This document shows, in pieces, positions 48,042-52,053 of a stretch of DNA of 64,000 nucleotides (the stretch's first letter is position 1; every line of letters starts with the position of its first letter). The notes under the pieces were generated by a model, which saw nothing but the letters and a program-made list of their open reading frames with translations, was not told where the DNA came from and searched no databases. A program made the position numbers and the translations under genes. Origin of the DNA: Bryobacterales bacterium (GTDB taxonomy: Bacteria > Acidobacteriota > Terriglobia > Bryobacterales > UBA6623); contig JAPPLB010000152.1 of NCBI GenBank assembly GCA_028819575.1, positions 1 to 64,000 on the forward strand. Direction: 5' to 3'.

Positions 48042-49652
48042 CTATAGCGTCAATACCTGGTGATCGTGACAGTCGGGTCTGACCGCCTTCCGCACCGACT
48101 CCACGAAGTCGGGACCATGGCGCGCGTAGAACGACAGTGCTGAATACAGGCGCTCCTGGGGATGCCGCTCGGGATAGATCAAGTTGGCGAGATAGGCTGC
48201 GTCCCCCTGCGCGCGTGCATCACGCCGCAGGCCCTCTTGGGCTGCCTTGGAACGGATCTTGTTGAACTGGTAGAGCATCTTCTTGCTGGTGTTTTCGAGC
48301 GCCTGCCCTAGCGTAGCGTCGAAAGCCGCGAGTTCCCGATGCACCTCGGTCAAGGCCCTTTCGATCCGGATCTGGCCGGTCTCCATTTGTCGCTCCAAAC
48401 CTGCGGGAACCAGACGCCGCGCAATCTTTCTACGCAAGTCTTCCGCTGTTTGCAGACAATCGGTCGGGGAGAGTCGGTAGCGCTTGAGCAAACGTTCGGC
48501 TCTTGCATTGATGATGGTCAACGAGACCCGAGGCAACACGACAGGCATCCGGCCCAACAGCCGGTCATAGAGGGCTTCCGCCTGCGCCAGATAGGCGATC
48601 TCGGACGGTCCCGCGATGTAAACCGCCGTGGGCAGCAGGAAGTCCTGAGTCACCGGTCTCAGCAGGGCATTCGGGGAAAAGCGCTGCGGTGCCTCCGCCA
48701 AGGTCTCGCGCATGCTGTCGACGGAACAGGCGCCCTCTTCATCTTGATAGCCCTGCGGCGTGCGCTTCAGAGCAATGCGGCGATCCTGCTCGATGCGAAA
48801 CAGCAGCGAGGTCTCAGGAGCAACGCGCACCTGCGCGTGATAACCGGCGTCCACAAGAGCTTGGGATCGCTCTGCGAGCGCCTCGTACAACTCCGGTTCC
48901 TGCCTTAGCACGCCGTCGAACAGCGGCGCCGCCAGCCTGCGTATGGCCGGGTCCATCGGGTCCAAGAAGATCAGGCCTGCGTCGCGAAGCAACGAGTTGA
49001 GAAGACACCGGAAGCCGTCGCGGAAAGAAACGCCGGCAGGATATGCTCGTTCCGCCAGAACGAGGGCTTGGGAGCTGAATGGCAGCTCGGCAAGGTGAGC
49101 GCCCAGCTCGTCGAGAACGGTGTCCGCAAGGACTACGGTGCCTACCGGTTGGTTCTCGGAGTGCGGCGCTTTTCCTTGCAGCCTCGACGGCAGAGTGTTC
49201 GTATCGTGAACCCACACATGGTCGACTTCGGCGAGATCGTGATCCTCCGTAGCCAACCAGAAGACGGCAACCGCGGGCTGCCCGGCCTCTCGCAGCCTCC
49301 GGGCGTGTTCCAGAGCCGTAATCGCCTTGTAGAGTGTGAATACCGGGCCGGTGTAGAGCCCGACCTGTTGACCGGTCGCCACGACAATCGCATCCGAGCG
49401 GCTGAGCAGTTCGACATTCGATGCGGATGCTTCCCCCATGCCTCTGTTCTGCTGCCGGAGAGCCGCAACCAGGTCCTTCCGATGTTGAGCCGGCAGGCTT
49501 GCTTGCCGGGCTGCTTGGTGAATCGCGTTCGTATCGGGTGGTTGTTGATAGAACGATCGGACGCGGTCAAAGCGGTAAAGGTAATCCGTGAAGAGCGCCG
49601 TCGAGCCCGGCATCTGGGTCTGCTTCAGGCAGACACTTTCAAGGTCGCTCAA
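48042..49652 (-). CDS. bshC: Bacillithiol biosynthesis cysteine-adding enzyme
   Basis: This 536-residue BshC joins cysteine to glucosaminyl-malate in the last step of bacillithiol synthesis. Diagnostic parts are LFTDYLYRFDRVRSFY, VATGQQVGLYTGPVFTLYKA, AVFWLATEDHDLAEVDHVWV, FLLPTAVYIAGPSEIAYLAQ and the C-terminal coiled-coil-like region before PQERLYSALSFYARHG. Length is typical. The start is a TTG at 49652; the next Met begins inside the conserved N-terminal motif. A YfiT/BstA-like protein is encoded at 60813, so the cell likely uses bacillithiol. Confidence 0.94.
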   Translation of the reverse strand: MSDLESVCLKQTQMPGSTALFTDYLYRFDRVRSFYQQPPDTNAIHQAARQASLPAQHRKDLVAALRQQNRGMGEASASNVELLSRSDAIVVATGQQVGLYTGPVFTLYKAITALEHARRLREAGQPAVAVFWLATEDHDLAEVDHVWVHDTNTLPSRLQGKAPHSENQPVGTVVLADTVLDELGAHLAELPFSSQALVLAERAYPAGVSFRDGFRCLLNSLLRDAGLIFLDPMDPAIRRLAAPLFDGVLRQEPELYEALAERSQALVDAGYHAQVRVAPETSLLFRIEQDRRIALKRTPQGYQDEEGACSVDSMRETLAEAPQRFSPNALLRPVTQDFLLPTAVYIAGPSEIAYLAQAEALYDRLLGRMPVVLPRVSLTIINARAERLLKRYRLSPTDCLQTAEDLRRKIARRLVPAGLERQMETGQIRIERALTEVHRELAAFDATLGQALENTSKKMLYQFNKIRSKAAQEGLRRDARAQGDAAYLANLIYPERHPQERLYSALSFYARHGPDFVESVRKAVRPDCHDHQVLTL

Positions 49653-50911: not shown

Positions 50912-51700
50912 TTACGAATAACTGAGAACCGCGTCGGCTTCGCTGTCGAATGTCTCGAAGACCGTGTAGAGTTTGGTGATCTGTAGCAGGTCGTTGACCT
51001 TCTGCTGCAGGTTGATCAGCTTGAGGCCGGCGCCCTGGTTCGACGCTGTCGTATAGCTCGACACCAATTCGCCGAGACCGGAACTATCGATATAGCCGAC
51101 GTCTCCGAGGTTCAGCACGATCTTCTTCTGTCCTTTGCCGAGGACTTCCCGGACCGTGTCCCGGAGCGTGCCGGATCCTTCTCCGAGTGTAATGCGTCCG
51201 CTGAGGTCGATTACGGTTACGCCATCCACATCACGAACGTTGGTTGAAAGGCTCACTTCCTCCTCCTTGTGACTCCATTCTTGCGGGATCTTCTTGACCA
51301 TCGCAACTTCGGTGCCCCGCGGCGACACGGGACGAAACGTGATTTCGTCCACGAACGCCCGCGAAAGCAACAGACCCCGCCCGGAAGCCTTGAACAAGTT
51401 GTCGCCTTCCGTGGGGTCCGGGACCGAATCGGGATCGAAGCCATCCCCCTCGTCCCGAATTGTGATGGATAGTTGAGATGGACTGGTGGCTACTGAAAAG
51501 TAGACTGACTTCTCCTTACTGTACCGGTTTCCATGAATGACTGCGTTCACGGTGATCTCACGAACCGCCATCGCAAGCTTTGCGATGATTTCTTCGCCAA
51601 GACCGTGATCCTGAGCCAGCGCCTTTACGATGATCTCCGCCGCGTCGACGCTCGATAGAGTACTATCAAGCCTCAGGTTCAATTCTCGGCCTGCCGACAT
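50912..51700 (-). CDS. Fused anti-sigma kinase (RsbW-like) and STAS antagonist
   Basis: This 262-residue protein joins two domains usually encoded separately. Residues 1-140 form a HATPase_c anti-sigma domain with the N-box EITVNAVIHGN and the G-box IRDEGDGFDP plus SGRGLLLSRAFVDE. Residues 149-262 form a STAS domain with the phosphorylatable site YIDSSGLGELVSSY. In partner switching the kinase phosphorylates the antagonist on Ser; here both are on one chain. A strong AAGGAGGAGGAA sequence directly before the in-frame GTG at codon 149 suggests that the STAS part is also made alone. The sigma factor is not in the window. Confidence 0.85.
   Translation of the reverse strand: MSAGRELNLRLDSTLSSVDAAEIIVKALAQDHGLGEEIIAKLAMAVREITVNAVIHGNRYSKEKSVYFSVATSPSQLSITIRDEGDGFDPDSVPDPTEGDNLFKASGRGLLLSRAFVDEITFRPVSPRGTEVAMVKKIPQEWSHKEEEVSLSTNVRDVDGVTVIDLSGRITLGEGSGTLRDTVREVLGKGQKKIVLNLGDVGYIDSSGLGELVSSYTTASNQGAGLKLINLQQKVNDLLQITKLYTVFETFDSEADAVLSYS
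51257..51268 (-). promoter_or_regulatory. Internal ribosome binding site in the fused gene
   Basis: On the minus strand AAGGAGGAGGAA immediately precedes an in-frame GTG (51256-51254), which encodes the first residue of the STAS domain. The match to the anti-Shine-Dalgarno core is better than before most genes in this window. It implies a second, shorter STAS-only product. Confidence 0.55.
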
Positions 51701-52053
51701 AGACGACGGGAATCCGTCTGACCCTCGATTGCTCCCCCAGCCTAGCAGTCCGTGGTGAAACCGTGCGTAGTACCGAGAGCGGCCCGTATAGCACCGCTAA
51801 TGGCGCTGTGCCCGGCTGACAAGGAGCGACCATGGAGCATATTGGACCAATGTGACCGAGGAGCAACGCAGTTCAATCGGAATGCATCGCCGCTTGAATG
51901 CAGCGAGGCTTTTGCCACGGGCTGCTTAGAATAGGAAACGATTGCATACCCCAAAAGAGAAAGTCAAGAAAGCAGCGGGGAGCCTGCGGAAACCGCGGCC
52001 ACAGCAGTGTTGCGTCGGCTGAAGCGCTCCGGTTCGCCGAGCGATCCATGCTG
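51701..52053. other. Intergenic region without identifiable gene
   Basis: This divergent region between the RsbW-STAS gene and the oxidoreductase gene has several short frames but none with protein-like sequence or a ribosome binding site. It presumably holds both promoters. Confidence 0.5.

Follow-up and report, generated by a model that had tools for sequence, protein, structure and literature searches.

A kinase-STAS gene fusion in Bryobacterales that retains the ribosome-binding site and start codon of its antagonist domain

Results

A single open reading frame encodes a kinase domain and a STAS domain

The window analysed here is a 64,000-nucleotide stretch of a Bryobacterales (Acidobacteriota) genome of 200 contigs (G000; contig JAPPLB010000152.1, positions 1 to 64,000). 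On its minus strand, a single open reading frame (50912..51700) runs from an ATG at 51700 to a TAA ending at 50912, comprising 262 codons plus the stop, and this gene is conserved in the genomes G000, G002, and G001. Pfam assigned residues 13-136 (51293..51664, minus strand) to HATPase_c_2, an RsbW/SpoIIAB-like kinase domain referred to here as W (E 2e-25), and residues 154-257 (50930..51241, minus strand) to an RsbV/SpoIIAA-like STAS domain referred to here as V (E 1e-15). A preliminary description of this DNA had placed a kinase and a STAS domain in one frame of 262 codons, naming no strand; both domains were indeed recovered, and the motifs that it quoted are present. In sequence alignments, Glu48 and Asn52 of W line up with the vseavtNaiihg motif of SpoIIAB, and the DSSG serine of V is aligned with SpoIIAA. 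The first serine of DSSG, Ser206 (51083..51085, minus strand; Ser58 in a free V), was aligned to the SpoIIAA chain 1th8_B and, by analogy with the family, is the predicted phosphorylation site. When modelled with AlphaFold2 (mean pLDDT 86, pTM 0.54), the fused chain shows two well-folded domains joined by a disordered link at residues 141-148 (pLDDT < 50), with no confidence in the placement of W relative to V, and the best Foldseek matches to this model were SpoIIAB, SpoIIAA, RsbW, and RsbV chains.

The linker between the domains (residues 139-148; 51257..51286, minus strand) is predicted to be disordered, and it corresponds to the ancestral intergenic region containing the Shine-Dalgarno (SD) sequence. 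The minus-strand sequence of the junction is CACAAGGAGGAGGAAGTGAGC, in which the SD sequence AAGGAGG (51262..51268, minus strand) stands 5 nt 5' of an in-frame GTG (51254..51256, minus strand), the proposed internal start of a predicted 114-aa product; this AAGGAGG-N5-GTG arrangement lies exactly at the boundary of W and V. A stop codon or frameshift between the domains, which would have counted against the preliminary description, was looked for in three separate genomes and is absent from each. The gene is fused in all three species of genus g1 that were examined (G000, and G002 and G001 at 99% and 81% identity, respectively), and because these three genomes agree, an assembly or sequencing error as the source of the fusion was ruled out.

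Family membership of W and V and the surrounding circuit

The W domain belongs to HATPase_c_2 (89.7 bits against a cut-off of 27.4), and it carries the N-box Glu and Asn (E48, N52), whereas V belongs to the anti-sigma factor antagonist superfamily TIGR00377 (64 bits against a cut-off of 53.45) and has the conserved DSSG serine. W fell far below the cut-offs of the NCBIfam equivalogs for RsbW and SpoIIAB (NF003144, 36.8 against 145; TIGR01924, 28.6 against 155; TIGR01925, 51.1 against 135), and no SigB/F/G-type sigma factor (TIGR02980) scored above cut-off in the G000 genome, the best match reaching 136.8 against 234.35. The neighbours of the fused gene are bshC, a beta-barrel protein gene, and an FAD oxidoreductase gene, with no adjacent sigma factor gene; bshC, for bacillithiol biosynthesis, lies beside the fused locus at 48042-49652 on the minus strand. 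Likewise, no sigma factor or phosphatase was detected in the ten flanking ORFs tested near the W/V loci of relatives. The preliminary description had called the kinase anti-sigma, and the equivalog and sigma factor searches did not bear this out; because no SigB/F/G-type sigma factor was found above cut-off in the genome and no sigma factor in the relatives' flanking ORFs tested, "anti-sigma" is to be read as a family label rather than as a result. The target of W may be more distant than a sigma factor of the SigB/F/G type. Elsewhere in G000, five matches to the SpoIIE domain (PP2C phosphatase) scored above cut-off, four of them strong and none on the window's contig, and the genome encodes two other small W-like kinases. 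L110 and L117 (G000:C161:35343-36417) are a small W-like kinase and a large SpoIIE phosphatase that adjoin each other, and they are possibly a separate partner-switching module.

W and V are separate neighbouring genes in relatives, and fusion appears to have occurred more than once

The preliminary description held that the two domains are normally encoded by separate genes and proposed a search for the fusion in related genomes. In the split relatives examined, W and V are indeed neighbouring genes, parted by a stop or a change of frame. Among 257 genomes of the order, only four contained a full-length match free of stops, namely the three of g1 and G006 (genus g5), and the remaining full-length matches had at least one stop each; a further W-V fusion was found in G534, from a distant family. 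Two additional loci, L066 and L067, were marked as fused in the tree, but this proved to be an artefact of start placement, as a stop codon separates the domains in both. The fused set is therefore five loci rather than seven, and these represent three lineages: g1 (three loci), G006, and G534.

In split relatives, V starts at the codon aligned with the internal GTG. This codon is usually GTG or ATG, in most cases has AGGAGG or AAGGAG 5' of it, and is mostly followed by AGC or AGT. In G004, the closest split relative by identity, the junction reads CAGTAAGGAGGAGTTGAAATGAGT, and the stop codon overlaps the SD sequence. Because V of the split relatives begins at the aligned codon, the GTG at 51256 is the ancestral start of V, which survived the loss of the stop codon that had parted W from V. 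In a maximum-likelihood tree built from both domains together, G006 grouped with g6, a split genus (support 100), and apart from g1 (99). Since the tree parts G006 from g1, at least two separate fusions in this family (g1 and G006) would be the simplest reading, with G534 as a third, although a single ancestral fusion followed by several re-splittings could in principle still account for the distribution.

The SD sequence and start codon are retained in all fused lineages

An SD-like site and a start codon are kept at the junction in all five fused loci and thus in all three lineages, as AAGGAGG-N5-GTG in the three g1 loci, AGGAGG-N10-ATG in G006, and GGAGGTGA-N4-ATG in G534. The frame across the SD sequence differs, being KEEEV in g1 and IGGRFSM in G006; therefore, the retained feature is the nucleotide sequence and not the linker peptide. 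How often such a site arises by chance was estimated from the window only: among 918 internal in-frame ATG, GTG, and TTG codons in 45 long ORFs, three had a 7-nt SD match at a spacing of 4-9 nt, and of these three only the site at 51256 contained AGGAGG. Between G000 and G001, 111 of the 209 degenerate codons for identical amino acids are unchanged (53%) and 98 of the 209 differ; all five KEEEV codons are unchanged, while the upstream linker is mostly changed and the codons just after carry silent changes. The probability of this codon conservation, approximately 0.05 from residue-specific rates, is suggestive only. The predicted RNA fold around the internal site was no more open than that of shuffled sequences (z 0.58). 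Altogether, the idea of an internal start, as put forward in the preliminary description, is supported, in that an SD sequence and an in-frame GTG at 51256 begin the V part and the same codon is the start of V in relatives.

It should be noted that KEEE-type linkers in GC-rich genes can give rise to an SD-like sequence unaided, and that the fusions in G006 and G534 may be young, in which case selection would not be required for the SD sequence to be retained there. These considerations bear on a different reading, in which the gene yields the fusion and no other product, the SD sequence is a relic, and V acts only in cis or from one fused subunit on another, at a fixed 1:1 ratio of W to V. In favour of this reading, no stop interrupts the frame and a flexible linker connects the domains, a recent fusion would leave the SD sequence intact without selection, and Rv1364c is a natural protein in which kinase and STAS domain are tethered (PMC9138534, PMC10950880). 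However, the SD sequence and start are intact in g1 at 77% nucleotide identity, and across the three separately fused lineages. A strong SD sequence with correct spacing usually initiates translation, and for these reasons production of the fusion alone is considered unlikely.

Translational signals are strong at V and nearly absent at W

Over 75 loci, the best SD match averaged 6.1 nt at V and 2.1 nt at W, the latter being the best value among several candidate W starts, and no SD sequence precedes any W start in g1. Across loci L001-L079, W starts in most of the sampled relatives have no SD sequence and V starts have a strong one. This asymmetry suggests a shared translational bias toward the antagonist V, and because the SD match is strong at V and near absent at W, an output rich in V looks like the ancestral design.

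Upstream of W, a promoter-like element, TTGACTTT-N-TRTGCRAT (51941..51967, minus strand), is strongly conserved in L003, L004, L007, L024, L025, and others; the -10 part departs from the standard TATAAT. The element lies ~85 nt 5' of the W start in most of the relatives in which it was detected, compared to ~240-270 nt in G000, where the longer distance is due to an inserted repeat. This dispersed repeat of ~180 nt (51745..51926, no strand given), between the element and the start codon, has imperfect terminal inverted repeats (AGCAGCCCGTGG and AGCAGTCCGTGG, read from each end) and flanking TA; it has 29 matches in its own genome, is absent from the 99%-identical G002, and looks by these sequence features like a MITE.

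A W start with no SD sequence at any g1 locus, together with a leader that in G000, unlike in G002 and G001, has a 180-nt repeat separating the ATG from the promoter-like element, could indicate that the full-length chain is marginal and that the gene yields mainly free V and little kinase. However, W starts lack an SD sequence in most relatives and this is therefore the normal state of the family, and the W domains of G000 and G001 are still similar, with 76% amino acid identity. A marginal full-length chain is thus regarded as highly improbable.

Discussion

The fused gene probably makes two products, the 262-aa W-V fusion and a free V, with the internal start still in use; this reading is drawn from the sequence comparisons described above. 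In the ancestor W and V were neighbouring genes, presumably co-transcribed, in which a weak ribosome site at W was followed by a strong one at V. In genus g1, the stop between W and V was lost while the SD sequence and GTG of V remained, so that one product would be the 262-aa fusion, initiated without an SD sequence, and the other the 114-aa free V from the GTG at 51256, which would be the more abundant. We infer that the residues phosphorylated by W would be Ser58 in free V and its counterpart Ser206 in the fusion, that a PP2C (SpoIIE-type) phosphatase from elsewhere in the genome would undo this, and that dephosphorylated V would then pull W off its target. The preliminary description had proposed that a fused gene with two products changes the stoichiometry of partner switching. 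The stoichiometric argument is better reversed: with its internal site retained, the gene would go on providing the ancestral surplus of free V, and what the fusion would add is one tethered V per kinase. We also raise, tentatively, the broader possibility that pairs of this kind have fused repeatedly with the ribosome site of the antagonist under selection, and that a self-tethered kinase facing an excess of free V, with competition in cis and in trans, would make a sharper switch.

The relative synthesis of RsbV, RsbW, and SigB sets the behaviour of the sigma-B network in B. subtilis (PMC5207722), and an altered rsbW start codon changes SigB activity in Listeria (PMC13068326). The loci described here form a natural series of split pair, fused pair, and three fusion events; they bear on how tethering is tolerated by a kinase-antagonist pair, and on whether a fused operon keeps its subunit ratios by retaining the ribosome site of the downstream gene. 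A search of the open-access literature for reports of W-V fusions that keep an internal V start found none.

The fused gene resembles the SpoIIAB/SpoIIAA and RsbW/RsbV pairs of Bacillus in domain sequence and fold, in the kinase motif, and in the DSSG serine; however, the g1 gene encodes one chain in the order W then V, falls below the RsbW/SpoIIAB equivalog cut-offs, and has no adjacent sigma factor gene. Fusion of W to V is as such already known, because Rv1364c of Mycobacterium tuberculosis joins RsbW and RsbV in one PAS-PP2C-RsbW-RsbV chain (PMC9138534, PMC10950880). Both proteins place an RsbW-like kinase ahead of a STAS domain in one chain, but Rv1364c, unlike the g1 gene, also has sensor and phosphatase domains. 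To our knowledge, no internal V start has been reported for Rv1364c. Internal in-frame starts that give a C-terminal product are known from Cas8b/Cas11b (PMC11899642) and SpaO (PMC13059759), where one gene likewise provides a full-length and a C-terminal product; in the g1 gene the short product is predicted. The proteins of those systems are unrelated to W-V, and the internal start of the g1 gene differs from theirs in being traceable to a separate ancestral gene.
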